From positions 1 to 6,586 of the forward strand of contig JACOVB010000443.1 in NCBI GenBank assembly GCA_016177555.1: a stretch of DNA of 6,586 nucleotides. The letters run 5' to 3'. The DNA comes from Candidatus Rokuibacteriota bacterium. GTDB taxonomy: Bacteria > Methylomirabilota > Methylomirabilia > Rokubacteriales > CSP1-6. How positions within the stretch are numbered: the stretch's first letter is position 1; every line of letters begins with the position of its first letter. The position numbers were made by a program, and so were the translations under genes. Shown here piece by piece: positions 1 to 6,586 of the stretch. The notes under the pieces are model-generated. The model did no database searches. It had not been told where the DNA came from and saw nothing but the letters and a program-made list of their open reading frames with translations.

Positions 1-386
1 CCGCGATCTTCTTCCCGCCCGCCCCGACGTTCCTCGTCACTGACGGCACCCGATCTTGACGAATTGTGATAGTTTCCCCCCGCGCACGCCGCCAGCCCCC
101 TGCGTGGCGCGCAGGAAATGCCAGGCTTCTCGGCGTCATAGGGGGTGAAGAGACTGCGCGGGAGAGGTCGGGCATCGGAATTGCTCTGAACGGATGGGCG
201 GCGGCGCTGGGCCGTCACCCTTGCGGAGGGGACGCGGAGGGCCGGAAGGCTCCCGGGTCTTGCCTCGGAGACCATGGGGAAGATCAGGGATAGAAAAGCG
301 TCGGGTTTCGCGCTAGATTCATGCGGGTTGGGTCACGGTCGCGGGAGCAGGCGGCGAATGGTCACGGACCAGAAGGGGAGGCGACG
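1..386. other. Region without a convincing gene, upstream of mlaA
   Basis: I see no supported gene here. The + strand reading frame at 66-293 starts with GTG, has no Shine-Dalgarno and encodes an Arg/Gly/Pro-rich product typical of chance frames in GC-rich DNA. At the left edge, a minus-strand frame is open from a GTG at 49-47 to position 1 (first residues MPSVTRNVGAGGKKIA). It could be the start of a divergent gene, but 16 codons without a ribosome binding site cannot establish this. On the + strand, three short frames close at 67-69, 40-42 and 57-59, and any of them could be the end of an upstream gene. I found no tRNA-like fold and no convincing sigma70 promoter. The best -10-like hexamer before mlaA (TAGATT, 314-319) has no acceptable -35. 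Confidence 0.5.
375..381 (+). promoter_or_regulatory. Shine-Dalgarno that sets the mlaA start
   Basis: GGGGAGG ends five bases before the GTG at 387. The GGAGG core and its spacing match those before nrdJ. This favours GTG387 over the in-frame ATG at 321, which has no such site in front of it and would give an unusually long n-region before the lipoprotein signal. Confidence 0.7.
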
Positions 387-1436
387 GTGCGCGTGAGATC
401 GTGGATTCCAGCGGGTGCGCGGACGGTGACGATGCTCTTCGGCGTGCTGGCTCTCGCGCTCGGTGGCTGCGGGAGCCTCTCGGGAGGGCTGCACAGCGAT
501 GCGCTGTCTCTTGCCGCGCCGCCATCGATGGTGGCGGCCGCGACACCGGACGAGGCCATCGCGCCCGCGCGAGACACCGACGCGGTGGTGGTGGACACCG
601 ACGCAGCGGTGGTGGTGGACGCGACGCCCGTCGAGCGCGTCGCCGTCACGGACCTCGCTGTGGCCGTGGGCGAGAGCGTCGCGACGCCCGCGGCCTTCGA
701 CATCGCCAGCATCGAGCTGCTGCGTGACGAGCACGTCTCCTCCGCGTTCCTGGCGCTCGAGGACTCCATGATGGTCGCCCAGGCGCCTTCCGGGAGCCGC
801 CCCTCGCAGCCGCCGCTCGACGCGGCCATCGAGGAATACGACCCGTGGGAGTCGTTCAACGAGTCGATGTTCACCTTCAACCGGAACCTGGACAAGTTCG
901 TCCTCAAGCCGGCGGCGCAGGCGTACAACTTCGTCGTGCCGGACGAGCTGCAGCAGATGATCGACAGGGGCTTCGAGAACATCCGCGTGGTGCCGCGCGT
1001 GGTGAACAACCTCTTGCAGGCCAAGTGGGCGGGGGCCGGCCGCGAGATCGCCCGCTTCCTCATCAACTCCGTCGTCGGGATCGGCGGCCTCTGGGACATG
1101 GCCAAGCAGGAGTGGGGCATCGAGAGGAGCAAGGAAGACTTCGGCCAGACGCTCGGCGTCTGGGGCGCTGGCCCGGGGCCCTATCTGGTGCTGCCGCTCC
1201 TGCCTCCCATGACGATCCGCGATGGCATCGGCACGGCCGTGGACGGGGCGATGGATCCCCTGAGCTACTTCCTGCCCTTCATCTGGGAGCGCTTCGCCAT
1301 GAAGGCGGGCGACATCGTCAACGACCGGTCGCTCAACCTGGAGCTGTTCGAGGGCGTGGAGGAGACGACGGTGGACCTCTACACCGCGGTCCGCAACGCC
1401 TACCTGCAGCGGCGGGCGCGCCAGATCAAGGAGTAG
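387..1436 (+). CDS. mlaA: MlaA (VacJ) family outer-membrane lipoprotein
   Basis: MlaA is the outer-membrane lipoprotein of the Mla system. It removes mislocalised phospholipid from the outer leaflet and passes it to periplasmic MlaC and the inner-membrane MlaFEDB transporter. From GTG387 the product has 349 residues. It has a short basic N-terminus, a hydrophobic stretch (about 15-27, MLFGVLALALGG) and a lipobox cysteine at residue 28 (codon 468-470). A low-complexity linker follows to about residue 150. The MlaA domain then runs from YDPWESFNESMFTFN (about 151) through RFLINSVVGIGGLWD and the hallmark DFGQTLGVWGAGPGPYLVLP (251 onward) to DPLSYFLPF. The domain is complete, but the linker of about 120 residues is much longer than in typical MlaA proteins of about 250 residues. 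The stop is 12 bases from the stop of the converging downstream gene. No other mla gene is in the window, so it stands alone here. An ATG at 321 in the same frame would add 22 residues. Confidence 0.93.
   Translation: MRVRSWIPAGARTVTMLFGVLALALGGCGSLSGGLHSDALSLAAPPSMVAAATPDEAIAPARDTDAVVVDTDAAVVVDATPVERVAVTDLAVAVGESVATPAAFDIASIELLRDEHVSSAFLALEDSMMVAQAPSGSRPSQPPLDAAIEEYDPWESFNESMFTFNRNLDKFVLKPAAQAYNFVVPDELQQMIDRGFENIRVVPRVVNNLLQAKWAGAGREIARFLINSVVGIGGLWDMAKQEWGIERSKEDFGQTLGVWGAGPGPYLVLPLLPPMTIRDGIGTAVDGAMDPLSYFLPFIWERFAMKAGDIVNDRSLNLELFEGVEETTVDLYTAVRNAYLQRRARQIKE
573..617 (+). repeat. Imperfect tandem repeat in the MlaA linker
   Basis: Two adjacent units start with GACACCGACGC and end with GGTGGTGGTG. 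The first is 21 bases (573-593) and the second 24 bases (594-617), one codon longer. They encode DTDAVVV and DTDAAVVV, followed by a partial third unit beginning VDAT. The unit length is a multiple of three, so copy number can change without breaking the frame. It lies in the low-complexity linker between the lipidated cysteine and the MlaA domain. Confidence 0.75.
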
Positions 1437-1448
1437 CTCGGGGCTCGC

Positions 1449-1979
1449 TCACCCCCGCGGGCGCAGACGCCCGAGCGCGCGTGCCGCGGCACGGGCCTTC
1501 TTGGGGAGCCGGCGCGGGTTGCCCTTCCTGGGCCGCGCGGAATCCGTCTCGTCGCCCTCGCCCTCGTCCTTGTCCGTGGGGCCGTCCTCACGCGCAGCCG
1601 GCGACGGGACGCGCAGGCGCTCGAGCCTCGCCAGGAAGTCGTCGGTGCTGACGGCCACGGCGCCCGCGCGGGAGGCCGCCTGCAGGACGGCGCGATCGTT
1701 GGACACGACGGCGCCTCCGCGCGCGGCCATGCGGGACAGGACGCGGTCGGCCGTCTCGCGCGCGCTCGAGAACACCACGTGCACGCCGGCGCCGCCCGAC
1801 CCGGCCCCTCCGGCCCCCGCCCCGTCGAAGACCACGGTGAACTGATCGCCTGACGCGCGAGCGACCCCGGCCAGAACACCGCAGAGGGCCGCCCGCCCCA
1901 AGGCCAGCCCCTGCGTCTCCTTCGAGGCCAGTTCCGGCGAGCGCCGGATCACGTTGTAGCCGTCCACCAGCCAGCGCAT
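1449..1979 (-). CDS. YacP-like NYN (PIN-fold) domain protein, probable ribonuclease
   Basis: This 176-residue protein starts MRWLVDGYNVIRRS, the signature opening of the NYN/YacP family. The best known member is Bacillus subtilis Rae1 (YacP), an endoribonuclease that acts on ribosome-associated mRNA. The family's acidic metal-binding positions are visible: D6 in VDGYN, D52 in VVFDGAG, D78 in ETADRVL and D95 in VVSNDRAV, followed by STDDFLARL at about 111-119. Two parts look added. One is a Gly/Ala-rich loop at about 53-65. The other is a C-terminal tail, acidic at about 131-146 and then strongly basic (RPRKGNPRRLPKKARAAARALGRLRPRG), which could bind RNA or ribosomes; that role is inference. 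The ATG at 1979-1977 is chosen because it begins the conserved motif. I see no good Shine-Dalgarno. A TACAAT hexamer on this strand at 1994-1989 lies only nine bases upstream of the ATG, so a very short leader is possible. The gene diverges from nrdJ and converges on mlaA. Substrate unknown. Confidence 0.85.
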   Translation of the reverse strand: MRWLVDGYNVIRRSPELASKETQGLALGRAALCGVLAGVARASGDQFTVVFDGAGAGGAGSGGAGVHVVFSSARETADRVLSRMAARGGAVVSNDRAVLQAASRAGAVAVSTDDFLARLERLRVPSPAAREDGPTDKDEGEGDETDSARPRKGNPRRLPKKARAAARALGRLRPRG

Positions 1980-2060: not shown

Positions 2061-2076
2061 GCACTAAATAAAGGTT
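2061..2076 (+). promoter_or_regulatory. Candidate NrdR box 1 (upstream, overlaps -35)
   Basis: GCACTAAATAAAGGTT matches about 11 of 16 positions of the NrdR box consensus acaCwAtATaTwGtgt (consensus from memory). The CAC-T-A left half and the central AT are the conserved parts. It begins exactly 32 bp before the better box at 2093, which is the spacing known for paired NrdR boxes, and it overlaps the first two bases of the -35 hexamer at 2075. On its own this match would be weak; the spacing and position before a ribonucleotide reductase gene are what support it. Confidence 0.55.
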
Positions 2077-2102
2077 GACCTGTGCGGGACCACCACTATA
2101 TC
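2075..2102 (+). promoter_or_regulatory. Sigma70-like promoter of nrdJ
   Basis: The -35 TTGACC (2075-2080) and the -10 TATATC (2097-2102) are separated by 16 bases. The -35 matches the consensus TTGACA at five of six positions and the -10 matches TATAAT at four of six. Transcription would start near 2109, giving a leader of about 70 bases before the nrdJ ATG. The stretch around it (2041-2104) is clearly more AT-rich than the rest of the window, as expected for a promoter in a GC-rich genome. Both hexamers are covered by NrdR-box-like sequences, so a bound NrdR would block RNA polymerase. Confidence 0.65.
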
Positions 2103-2108
2103 TTGGGC
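2093..2108 (+). promoter_or_regulatory. Candidate NrdR box 2 (downstream, overlaps -10)
   Basis: CCACTATATCTTGGGC matches 13 of 16 positions of an NrdR box (A-C-A-C-W-A-T-A-T-M-T-W-G-T-G-T, from memory), and it is partly palindromic. The core CACTATATCTTG is intact; mismatches are at positions 1, 14 and 16. It covers the -10 hexamer. NrdR is the ATP/dATP-sensing zinc-ribbon and ATP-cone repressor of bacterial ribonucleotide reductase genes, so a site here is biologically expected. The nrdR gene itself is not in the window. Confidence 0.72.
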
Positions 2109-2169
2109 ATCGCCCCGCAACCGCGGCGTTCGCTCTGTCACAGTCCGAGAGCACTCAGGGATCCGCTTC

Positions 2170-2175
2170 AGGAGG
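2170..2175 (+). promoter_or_regulatory. Strong Shine-Dalgarno of nrdJ
   Basis: AGGAGG lies five bases before the ATG at 2181. It fixes the start of the reductase and implies efficient translation. Confidence 0.88.
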
Positions 2176-2180
2176 TTCGT

Positions 2181-5100
2181 ATGAAGATCACCCGCCGGTT
2201 CACCCGGGAAGGTCAGAGTCCCTACGCCGGGCTCGAATTCGACCTGCGCAACTCCGAGATCAAGAACCCGGACGGCTCCACGGTCTTTCGCCAGGAGGGC
2301 GTCTCGGTGCCGGCCGCCTGGTCGGCGGTGGCCACCGACATCCTGGCCCAGAAGTACTTCAGGAAGTCCGGGGTGCCGCAAACCGGCACGGACGGAAAGC
2401 CCCTCCTCGACACGGAGGGACGCCCCGTCCTGGGCGGCGAGCGGGATGCCCGGCAGGTCTTCCATCGGCTGGCCGGGTGCTGGACCCAGTGGGGCGAGCG
2501 CTACGGCTACTTCGACAGCCACGCTGATGCCAAGACCTTCTACGACGAGCTGTGCTACATGCTCGCCGCCCAGATCGCGGCGCCCAACTCGCCGCAGTGG
2601 TTCAACACGGGGCTCTCGTACGCCTACGGGCTCACCGGTCCCGCGCAGGGGCACTACTACGTGGATCCGGAGCTCGGCACGCTGACGCGCGCCACCTCCG
2701 CCTACGAGCGCCCGCAGCCTCATGCGTGCTTCATCCTGTCCGTCTCCGACGATCTCGTCAACGACGGCGGCATCATGGACCTCTGGACGCGCGAGGCCCG
2801 CATCTTCAAGTACGGCAGTGGCAGTGGCTCGAATTTCTCCGCGCTCCGCGGCGAGAACGAGCCCCTGTCGGGCGGCGGCAAGTCGTCCGGGCTCATGTCC
2901 TTCCTCAAGATCGGCGACCGCGCGGCCGGGGCCATCAAGTCCGGCGGGACCACGCGGCGGGCGGCCAAGATGGTGTGCCTCGACCTCGATCACCCGGATG
3001 TGATGCAGTTCATCCGCTGGAAGGTCGTCGAGGAGCAGAAGGTCGCGGCCCTCGTGGCCGGCTCGCGACTCGGCAAGCGCCGGCTCCAGGCGGTGGTGAC
3101 GGCCTGCCGCGCGACGGGACCGACCGGCGAGCAGATCGACGCTGATCCGAAGAAGAGCCCGACGCTGCGCGCGGCGCTCCGCGAGGCGCGGGCGGCCATG
3201 GTGCCCGAGGCCTACATCCAGAAGACGCTGCAGCTCGCGGCCCAGGGCGTCACCGAGCTCGCGTTCCCGGAATACGATACGGACTGGGACAGCCAGGCCT
3301 ATCTCACCGTCTCCGGCCAGAACTCCAACAACAGCGTCCGCATCCCCAACCGCTTCTTCGAGGCGCTCGAGCGCGACGGCGAGTGGCTGCTCGTGCGGCG
3401 CACCGACGGCAAGGTCTCCAGGCGGCTCCCGGCTCGCGAGCTGTGGGAGGAGATCGCCTATGCCGCCTGGGCCTGCGCCGACCCCGGGTTGCAGTTCGAC
3501 ACCACCATCAACGAGTGGCACACCTGTCCCGAGGACGGCCGCATCAATGCCTCCAACCCGTGCGTCACCGGCGACACCCTGGTGGCCACGGCCGGCGGCT
3601 GGCAGCGGATCGACGCGCTGGTGGGCCGGCCGGAAAGGATCATCGGCGCCGACGGCCAGCCGCATCTCGTCACCAAGATCTTCCCCACGGGCCGCAAGCC
3701 CGTGTTCGTCCTGACCACGCGCTCGGGCTACCGCGTCCGCATCACCGGCGACCACCGTGTGCTGACGGTAGGGCGTGGCGACGTTCCGGTCAGTGATCTC
3801 ACCATGGACGACCGCCTCGTGCTGCAGGGGCCCGGCTTCGGCCGGCGGACGCTCGCCGCGAACCTGGCACTCGGCATCGGCGTGGCGGTCGGGGACGGCT
3901 GCCTTACGCGGGCCACGACCACCGGACGGTTGCAGGAGTCTGTGATCCTCACGATGCATGCCTCAGAGGCCCCGGTGCTGGCCTCGGTCGCGCAGGCGGT
4001 CAACGAGCAGAAGGCCGCTCTCAAGGCGGTGGGCTCGGTGGGCCGGAACGACGGCGTACAGGTCACGCGCGGCTCCACCGGCGCTCGCCTCGCCTTCGGC
4101 TCCCGTCCCGTGGTGGATCTCTTCCGCCAGTTCGCCGTCCTCGACGAGGGGGCCGCGCACAAGCGCTTCACGCCGGCGGTGTTCGAGCTGGACAGGCCGG
4201 CGCTGGCCGCCGTCCTGCGGGGGCTCTTCACCACCGACGGGACGGTGGCCAATTATGGCGGCAAGTCGCAGTACGTCTCCCTCGACTCGAGCTCGGAGGA
4301 ACTGCTCCGCCAGGTGCAGCTCCTGCTCCTGTCCTTCGGGATCAAGTCCAAGCTGTACGACGGGCGCCGCGGCGACACGACGACCGCCCTCCTTCCGGAC
4401 GGGCGGGAGGGGAGCCGCGAGTACCCTGTGCAGCCCATGTTCTCCCTCAGGATCAGCCGCTCCTCGCGCTTCATCTTCGAGCGGGAGATCGGGTTCCATC
4501 CCGAGAGCCCGAAGGCAGCGGCTCTGGCCCGGCTCAACGCCGAGGTCGCAGCCTACCGGGACGAGCTGACGGACCGGGTCGCGTCCATCGAGCCGGCCGG
4601 CGAGGAGGATGTCTTCGACCTCACCGAGGAGGCCACGCGGCACTTCGTGGCGGGCGGGCTCGTCGTCCACAACTGCTCGGAGTACCTCTTCCTGGACGAC
4701 ACCGCGTGCAACCTCGCCAGCGTGAACCTCGTGAAGTTCCTCCGCGAGGACGGGAGCTTCGACATCGACGGCTTCCGCCACGCCTGCCGGCTGTGGACCG
4801 CCGTGCTCGAGATCAGCGTGCTCATGGCGGCCTACCCGAGCCCGACCATCGCCCAGAAGAGCTGGGAGTTCCGCACGCTCGGCCTCGGCTACGCCAACAT
4901 GGGCACGATGCTGATGCGCAAGGGCATCGCCTACGACTCGCCGGAAGCCGTGGCCACGTGTGGCGCGCTCACGGCCATCATGCACGGCGAGGCCTACGCG
5001 ACCTCCGCCGAGATGGCGCGCGACCTGGGCCCCTTCCCCGGCTTCGTCCGCAACCGCGACCACATGCTGCGCGTGATACGCAACCACCGGCGTGCCGCCT

Positions 5101-6586
5101 ACAACGCCTCGACGGCCGAGTACGAGCAGCTCAGCATCCCGCCGCTCGGGATCGAGCCCGCCTGCTGCCCGGCCCCGCTGATCCAGGCGGCGCGCGAGAC
5201 CTGGGACCGGGCGCTCGCGCTGGGCGAGGCCCACGGCTACCGCAATGCCCAGGTCACCGTGCTGGCCCCGACGGGCACCATCGGCCTCGTGATGGACTGC
5301 GACACCACCGGCATCGAGCCCGACTTCGCCCTCGTGAAGTTCAAGAAGTTGGCGGGCGGCGGCTACTTCAAGATCATCAACCAGAGCTTGCCCGTCGCGC
5401 TCCGCACGCTGGGCTACACCGGGCGCCAGATCGACGACATCATCGCCTACGGCGTCGGGCGAAAGACCCTCCGCGGCGCCCCGGCCATCAACCACGAGAC
5501 GCTCCTGGCGCGGGGCTTCGACGAGGCCGGCATCGCCCGGGTGGAGGTGGCGCTGGAGGGCTCCTTCGACATCACGTTCGCCTTCAACCCGTGGGTTCTC
5601 GGGGAGGGCTACGTGGCCCAGCAGCTCGGGCTCAACGAGGCGCGGCTCGCCGAGTGGAACGGCAACCTCCTCCGGGCGCTGGGCTTCACGCCGGCCGAGA
5701 TCGAGGCCGCCAACGACTACTGCTGCGGCACCATGACTGTCGAGGGCGCGCCCCACCTCAAGGCCGAGCACCTGCCGGTTTTCGACTGCGCCAGCCGGTG
5801 TGGCCGGAAGGGCAGGCGCTTCATCCCCGTGGCCGCGCATATCAAGATGATGGCCGCCGCCCAGCCCTTCCTCTCCGGGGCCATCAGCAAGACCATCAAC
5901 ATGCCGGCCGACTCCACCGTGGAGGACGTCAAGCAGGCCTACCACGCCTCGTGGCGGAGCATGCTCAAGGCCGTGGCGCTCTACCGGGACGGCTCCAAGC
6001 TCTCCCAGCCGCTCAACGCGGTGACGGACGAGGAGGAGGCGGTGGCGGCGGCCGACGTCGAGGCCGTGGCCGAGAAGATGACCGAGCGGGTGGTGACCCA
6101 GTACCTGCGCGAGCGGCACAAGCTGCCCGACCGCCGTGCCGGCTACACCCAGAAGGCCGTGGTCGGCGGGCACAAGATCTACCTGCGGACGGGGGAGTAC
6201 CCGGACGGGACCGTGGGCGAGGTCTTCCTCGACATGCACAAGGAGGGCGCCGCGTTCCGGTCCCTCATGAACTGCTTCGCCATCGCGATCTCGCTCGGGC
6301 TCCAGCACGGCGTGCCGCTCGAGGAGTTCGTGGACGCCTTCGTCTTCACCCGCTTCGAGCCCAACGGCATGGTCCAGGGCAACGATCGGATCAAGATGGC
6401 CACCTCGGTGATCGACTACGTCTTCCGGGAGCTGGCCATCACCTACCTCGGGCGCACCGATCTCTCGCACGTGGCCGAGGAGGACCTGCGCGGCGACGCG
6501 ATGGGGAGCAAGGCCGGCCAGGGCCCGGTGGCGCTGCCGCCCCTCGCGCCGCCGGTCGCCCAGCCCGCAAGCCCCGGCGCGCGCCC
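2181..6586 (+). CDS. nrdJ: Adenosylcobalamin-dependent (class II) ribonucleotide reductase with intein, 3' end cut by window
   Basis: NrdJ reduces ribonucleotides to deoxyribonucleotides using a radical made from coenzyme B12, so it needs no oxygen and no separate radical subunit. The frame is open for 1468 codons to the window edge; removing the 371-residue intein leaves 1097 residues. It is the long form of the family: it opens [20 protein letters not shown] and has no N-terminal ATP-cone. Key residues in precursor numbering: C183 (PHACFILS), the first redox cysteine; N459-P460 joined after splicing to C832-S-E834, the N/C/E active-site triad with the thiyl-radical cysteine; C843 (DTACNLAS), the second redox cysteine; and APTGTIG at 1029-1035, the phosphate-binding loop. 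Later conserved blocks include [35 protein letters not shown] and [19 protein letters not shown]-type domain starts near 1334 ([13 protein letters not shown]). The usual Cys-rich C-terminal tail lies beyond the window. No frameshift or missing active-site residue is seen. Regulation by NrdR is likely from the upstream boxes. Confidence 0.97.
3561..4673 (+). mobile_element. Intein inserted in the NrdJ active site (371 residues)
   Basis: This in-frame protein intron lies between NrdJ residues P460 and C832. Block A begins at Cys1 with [20 protein letters not shown]. Block B is [10 protein letters not shown], with the T-x-x-H pair at intein positions 62 and 65. Block F is [21 protein letters not shown], and block G ends with penultimate His (370) and Asn (371) before the +1 Cys. 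All residues of a standard class 1 splicing pathway are present: N-S acyl shift at Cys1, transesterification to Cys+1, and Asn cyclisation. Excision restores the NrdJ motif [15 protein letters not shown] exactly. The residue at -1 is proline, which can slow the first splicing step, but it is fixed by the host motif. Base composition resembles the flanking gene, so the intein is either long resident or from a similar GC-rich donor. Boundaries are exact by motif; activity is not shown. Confidence 0.95.
3864..4600 (+). other. LAGLIDADG (DOD) homing endonuclease domain of the intein
   Basis: This domain would cut intein-free nrdJ alleles at the insertion site so that the intein is copied in by repair. 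Two dodecapeptide motifs are visible. The first is [14 protein letters not shown] (precursor 562-575), with its acidic residue D572 (intein 112). The second is [13 protein letters not shown] (677-689), with D686 (intein 226). Their separation of 114 residues is normal for a two-motif monomer. Each keeps its catalytic aspartate and the small residues that pack the helices, so the domain looks intact, not degenerate. The outer limits given are approximate: the start is the first motif and the end is just before block F of the splicing domain. Confidence 0.85.

Follow-up and report, generated by a model that had tools for sequence, protein, structure and literature searches.

The window, as we call the whole stretch of 6,586 nucleotides analysed here, comes from a Rokubacteria-type bacterium and carries the gene of a class II ribonucleotide reductase, NrdJ, interrupted by an intein directly before the cysteine that would carry the catalytic radical. 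The question raised by this locus is whether such a placement reflects control of the enzyme through splicing or the habits of a mobile element. The gene starts at ATG 2181, with GGAGG at 2171-2175, and its reading frame is still open at the end of the window. It was identified as a class II NrdJ by the family match of its product (NF005736, 1835.3 bits for a cut-off of 1737) and by the radical-cysteine motif N-P-C-x-E. The best-matching protein among the 120 listed was P0003 from Candidatus Rokubacteria GWF2_70_14 (92% over the region searched). Open reading frames of 631 (2064-3959) and 835-873 amino acids (3963-6584) on the minus strand were set aside, since in our judgement they mirror the GC-rich coding frame. 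Six relatives (L100-L105) likewise have DNA resembling the MlaA and/or the YacP-like NYN gene ahead of NrdJ.

Table 1 Features of the window, with the basis of each assignment
Feature	Position	Strand	Basis or remark
MlaA lipoprotein	321-1436	+	upstream of NrdJ
YacP-like NYN protein	1449-1979	-	upstream of NrdJ
NrdJ N-extein (B12-dependent ribonucleotide reductase), residues 1-460, ending ...INASNP	2181..3560	+	PF08471, PF02867, NF005736
C183 codon, equivalent of T. maritima C134	2727..2729	+	alignment; intein site in relatives, empty in the window
Intein of 371 residues (C461-N831 in precursor numbering)	3561..4673	+	PF14890, PF14528 and TIGR01445 over cut-off; flanks join without gap in intein-free relatives
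Block B, T-G-D-H, intein residues 62-65	3744..3755	+	T62 and H65 at least 98% conserved (121 inteins)
Divergent endonuclease-core block, against G093/L102	3756..4524	+	left edge within 3631-3757, right edge ~4523-4562
LAGLIDADG motif 1, acidic D112, then C114	3870..3899	+	read from the sequence by eye
LAGLIDADG motif 2, LRGLFTTDG, acidic D226	4215..4241	+	within the PF14528 match
Splicing-domain blocks F and G, ending VVHN	4611..4673	+	H370 and N371 in 121/121 inteins
NrdJ C-extein	4674..6586	+	open at window end
C832 codon, +1 splicing nucleophile and presumed thiyl-radical cysteine (equivalent of T. maritima C322)	4674..4676	+	alignment via L012
C843 codon, equivalent of T. maritima C333	4707..4709	+	alignment; intein site in relatives, empty in the window

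Searched on its own, the inserted segment, which lies between P460 and C832 of the NrdJ precursor, matched the Pfam families Intein_splicing (PF14890; E 1.2e-14, 54.8 bits for a cut-off of 35.8) and LAGLIDADG_3 (PF14528; E 1.8e-18, over its cut-off, intein residues 215-311) as well as the NCBIfam family intein_Nterm (TIGR01445; E 2.9e-6, 28.2 bits for a cut-off of 24.5). The NrdJ flanks align gap-free with relatives that have no insert and, in the comparison with intein-free NrdJ proteins proposed by the first-pass annotation, they join seamlessly at NP/C (the slash marks the point of insertion). An intein elsewhere or out of frame was ruled out by the family matches, the empty sites and the HN/C junction. 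The interval given earlier, 3561-4676, correctly contained the intein (3561-4673), but its end included the +1 codon (4674-4676), which lies outside.

The segment has the signature of a class 1 intein (C1, T62-x-x-H65, H370-N371 and C832 as +1 residue), and C1, T62, H65, H370 and N371 were each at least 98% conserved in a set of 121 inteins whose extraction pattern required C1 and the HN end, a pattern that no sequence failed. It also has the two motifs of a LAGLIDADG homing endonuclease with their acidic catalytic residues, D112 and D226. In the same set, position 112 was Asp in 107 inteins, Glu in 13 and Asn in one, and position 226 Asp in 120 and Glu in one, so that an acidic residue is kept in 120/121 and 121/121 inteins, respectively. 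The best sequence match to solved inteins was 4o1r (E 1.1e-12); AlphaFold2 on six inteins gave a poor model (mean pLDDT 52.5). Values of dN/dS of 0.14-0.18 against four relatives, for the whole intein and likewise for residues 96-330, point to purifying selection; the value for residues 331-371 against L102 was 0.50, calculated on very few changes. To judge from its sequence, the insert in NrdJ is a class 1 intein that carries the motifs of a LAGLIDADG endonuclease.

The active site was mapped by aligning the intein-free NrdJ of locus L012 to solved structures, including that of Thermotoga maritima NrdJ (1xje). C474 of L012 aligned with T. maritima C322, which we take to be the thiyl-radical cysteine, and N472, P473 and E476 with N320, P321 and E324; C195 and C485 aligned with C134 and C333, presumably the redox pair. 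Through L012, the +1 residue C832 maps on C322, in agreement with the earlier proposals that the intein lies directly before the catalytic cysteine and that C832 would act both as splicing nucleophile and as radical cysteine, the second role being that of C322. As also proposed, N459 and E834 (which, with the cysteine, presumably correspond to N437, E441 and C439 in E. coli numbering) lie on opposite sides of the intein, as read from the precursor coordinates, and the unspliced precursor is probably inactive. All three cysteines (195, 474 and 485) were present in 75/75 NrdJ sequences in which the window's site is empty, the conservation of C474 being partly by construction because this set was chosen by its NPCSEY motif.

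The locus is best explained as a mobile class 1 LAGLIDADG intein that occupies a repeatedly used position of the class II NrdJ in a bacterium of Rokubacteria type, to judge by the closest named proteins; we give this reading a probability of about 0.9. It is based on the position of the intein, on the conservation of its motifs for splicing and for the endonuclease, on purifying selection and on its scattered occurrence among relatives. After translation, C461 would attack the carbonyl of P460, the N-extein would pass to C832, and N831 would then cyclise; ligation would restore N-P-C-S-E, so that the enzyme would become active only after splicing. The use of the NP/C site would be explained by its location in an invariant core of the gene, where the endonuclease would recognise one target sequence in a wide range of hosts, an inexact deletion of the intein would destroy the enzyme, and Cys, Ser or Thr would be at hand as +1 residue.

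The occupancy of this site varies among relatives. Among the closest relatives by C-extein (the best 80 of 589 confirmed loci), 78 have an empty NP/C site, one is filled (L035) and one unscorable (L073). Of the listed protein matches, 120/120 carry an intein at NP/C, one of them with Ser for Pro, in a search whose query included the intein and from which the 120 listed proteins were examined (of 7,999 candidates scored, 6,842 were within the E-value limit). A survey of 95 genomes of the phylum with an exact DNA pattern gave matches in 14 and recognised the window's NrdJ site in seven, of which four are filled and three empty. On viral contigs we found three loci (L108-L110), of which the one examined, L108, is filled at NP/C, with 182/362 aligned residues identical. 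The 14 matches in phage records, one of which was examined, all came from SPbeta-like Bacillus phages (24-26% identity), and plasmids gave three weak matches to the intein. Such patchy occupancy would be consistent with a homing endonuclease cutting the empty allele. Horizontal spread predicts inteins more similar than their exteins, as seen in 59/172 precursors (for example, 72.8% versus 49.4% in a Thermoanaerobaculia protein); in 113/172 the intein is not more similar, which suggests that vertical descent also contributes. Not every copy need be an active endonuclease, since among 173 inteins at NP/C simple patterns recovered motif 1 from 129 and motif 2 from 151; nine of the 173, with fewer than 200 amino acids, are too short for an endonuclease. 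The placement at the radical cysteine is thus a common landing site, of a kind ordinary and already known. In the Gemmata genome G004, the N-part of an intein lies at a contig end and the C-part near another (the L081/L083 pair, 47% and 65% identity), which may be a broken assembly or two different inteins.

The NrdJ inteins most like that of the window (P0003-P0122 and part of P0123-P0241) share its site and Cys1 and end in HN in 171/172 cases and RN in one; among the hosts named are Methylomirabilota, Nitrospirota, Thermoanaerobaculia, Eisenbacteria and a Diapherotrites archaeon. In phage SPbeta, BnrdE (class Ib) is interrupted ahead of the equivalent cysteine (SNL/CSEV) by an intein that matches residues 1-371 at 25% identity but, unlike that of the window, has Leu at -1 and ends in GN. 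An intein also precedes the radical-cysteine equivalent in a second reductase of Rokubacteria, the copy in genome G001 matching residues 177-370 at 39%. The NrdJ-1 intein from a marine metagenome shares with the window an NrdJ host (by name) and the same catalytic motif; in contrast, it is split and, according to passages of its description, has flanks NPC and SEI, one residue later, with Ser+1 (PMC13123727). Being contiguous and at NP/C, the window's intein is not an NrdJ-1 allele, and the NrdJ-1 position was used by one of 239 precursors (P0224). The rir1 alleles (rir1-b, -g, -k, -l and -m) are reductase intein sites, and rir1-b is said to span class and domain boundaries (PMC4071816); the passages of that paper give them without residue positions, and their comparison with the window is by name.

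One region of the intein departs from this family picture. Between the window and P0003 or its counterpart in genome G093 (locus L102), whose intein proteins are identical to each other and 90.8% identical to that of the window, the endonuclease core has diverged much more strongly than the remaining sequence of NrdJ. Against L102, 127/769 bases differ within 3756-4524 (16.5%) and 61/2,708 outside (2.3%). The corresponding dS was 0.046 for the N-extein, 0.069 for the compared part of the C-extein and 0.363 for the intein, reaching 0.587 in the core, far above the adjoining extein stretches (0.025 and 0.071). The core dS between L102 and the more distant L103 (0.300) is close to that of their exteins (0.292 and 0.264), whereas that between the window and L103 is 0.543, which points to the core of the window as the foreign one. 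We lean towards an exchange within a resident intein, in which a divergent allele took the place of the endonuclease core (residues about 66-321) and both the exteins and the outer parts of the splicing domain were left as they were; this refines the mobile-intein explanation and does not compete with it. The edges of the block are blurred by stretches without differences, the left one falling anywhere from 3630, where the last difference before the block lies, to 3757, its first difference (intein residue 24 to the end of block B), and the right one between the last dense site at 4523 and the next difference at 4562. An assembly chimera would be an alternative source of the break, a search for the donor of the core gave none (P0003, at 89%, came closest among the 120 listed proteins, in a database clustered at 90%), and of the two close pairs compared the other, L100 and L101, was uniform, without a break. 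The passages of open-licence literature consulted describe no core swap of this type.

We mapped inserts, in L012 numbering, in 239 related precursors (120 from the first search and 119 more). Boundary placement gave a bonus to a Cys, Ser or Ala start, an Asn/Gln or HN end and Cys, Ser or Thr at +1; insertions scoring below 20 were dropped, namely that of P0087 at site 195 (score 19), one in P0182 (score 8) and three unplaceable P0183 rows. Inteins occurred at sites 195 (61), 227 (7), 266 (2), 270 (3), 474 (172), 475 (1), 485 (119), 675 (32), 880 (8) and 1008 (2), counts enriched by design, since both searches had the inteins of sites 474 and 485, and not those of 195, as their targets. Site 195 was filled in 28/120 first-search proteins, or 29 with P0087. 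At all ten sites the intein starts with Cys, and the residue that follows it at +1 is a cysteine at four (195, 474, 485 and 1008), a serine at two (266 and 475) and a threonine at four (227, 270, 675 and 880); this +1 residue is at least 95% conserved at 8/10 sites, the exceptions being 227 (88%) and 1008 (81%). NrdJ has 13 cysteines at least 95% conserved, and those with an intein directly before them are just the three that correspond to T. maritima C134, C322 and C333, with all three sites filled together in 15/239 precursors. The chance of hitting exactly those three was computed as 1 in 286, a figure not to be taken at face value because the searches were aimed at 474 and 485. In the passages of open-licence literature consulted, we found no report of three catalytic cysteines as intein sites. 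The precursors P0130, P0152 and P0176 have five inteins each, with lengths of up to 3,228 amino acids.

How far the cell would depend on splicing can be seen from its relatives. The first-pass annotation had dNTP supply depending wholly on it; however, 7/7 site-scored genomes of the phylum encode the large chain of a second reductase, intein-free in three (G064, G093 and G095), and the intact spare enzyme in G093, which among the seven is closest to the window, leaves that claim unsupported. In the other four (G001, G062, G063 and G074) the second reductase is itself interrupted at the homologous cysteine, by an intein that ends in HQ, unlike the HN of NrdJ. Both large chains found carry an intein in G063 and G074 (in the NrdJ of G074 at site 195), and in some strains dNTP supply could depend wholly on splicing. 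The G001 copy, the sole one family-tested for class II, scored over cut-off for NF006417 and TIGR02504. The second-reductase pattern matched in 67/95 genomes, with 48 NP/C (empty), 20 HN/C or HQ/C (filled) and four neither, occupancy outside the seven examined genomes being read from the DNA pattern alone. Class III reductases were detected in 0/7 site-scored genomes, and the class I small subunit gave weak matches in 2/7, one over cut-off. Reciprocal occupancy of the two reductases at the radical cysteine was observed in 6/7 genomes (one-sided, 0.11), too few for a claim. Intein-bearing second reductases, with the insertion before the homologous cysteine, are encoded at L106 8731-12258 (-), L114, L123, L124 and L125. 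The NrdJ of G074 (L105 828-5483 (-), P0242) has the window's site empty and is interrupted by an intein immediately ahead of the cysteine that corresponds to T. maritima C134.

It is very improbable that the intein serves to control reductase maturation in response to redox state or metals, with oxidation, or metal bound to Cys1 and C832, holding the precursor until the thiols are free. Cys1 and Cys+1 are both present in 172/172 inteins at NP/C, and published passages on other inteins describe catalytic-cysteine disulfides and inhibition by divalent cations (PMC4031507, PMC5874633), so that a redox or metal response in vitro would not surprise. However, Cys+1 belongs to the enzyme itself, NrdJ sites whose +1 residue is Thr or Ser are also filled, and the extra shared cysteine, C114 (Cys in 104/121 inteins), lies in the first LAGLIDADG motif, outside the splicing domain; the intein-free second reductase in three of the seven relatives, including the nearest, also speaks against such a switch. 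We dropped the Cys/Cys pair as evidence for regulation: the +1 residue follows the host residue at every mapped site, and the pair therefore says little on redox control. No specific redox sensor appears to be favoured on sequence grounds, and a regulatory role is unproven and not favoured. A wider version, to which we give just as little credence, would make the inteins before all three class II catalytic cysteines a checkpoint of thiol state, with Pro(-1) slowing the radical-cysteine one and activity released only under reducing conditions; if so, each intein would splice only with Cys1 and the enzyme's catalytic Cys reduced and metal-free. Target conservation explains most of this multi-cysteine pattern, and inteins are described as preferring conserved sites in passages of PMC2814812.

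The proline at -1 had been put forward as part of the case for redox- or metal-sensitive splicing. It belongs to the host's own NP motif and is no special arrangement, but it is chemically odd. It was found in 171/172 precursors with an NP/C intein; the sole exception is Ser in P0006, whose spliced active site would read N-S-C-S-E, or which may be a sequencing error. In the split intein NrdJ-1, Pro(-1) compromised splicing and is reported to disrupt its first step, and the authors describe its incompatibility as well known (PMC13123727), for which reason efficient splicing in the window can only be presumed. The NP/C intein family must live with this proline. The Mth RIR1 intein of Methanothermobacter, reportedly a mini-intein in a reductase, without endonuclease and with Pro at -1 and Cys at +1, is said to splice poorly with Pro(-1) at moderate temperature, which would point the same way.

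Least probable of all is that inteins at NP/C are retained because they aid enzyme maturation, given that the site is empty in 78 of the best 80 relatives and 3/7 scored genomes of the phylum and that, to our knowledge, this subunit of a class II reductase needs no metal loading. The proposal was made for the Aquifex aeolicus R2 intein, which lies between two metal ligands and whose spliced protein is described, in passages of that report, as containing more iron and being twice as active (PMC8772380). The mobile-intein explanation accounts for the data with no need for a regulatory role.

The window is one more case of an intein in an essential active site, and as a case it is ordinary. Worth bench follow-up are Pro(-1), the multi-cysteine precursors and the apparent core swap. 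Precursors in which the radical and redox cysteines all serve as +1 residues are natural constructs for asking whether splicing couples to host chemistry, and a large natural family with Pro(-1), reported to be disruptive in a well-used engineered relative, is of value for protein engineering. If true, an in-place swap of the endonuclease core between near-identical hosts would mean that the parts of an intein evolve separately.
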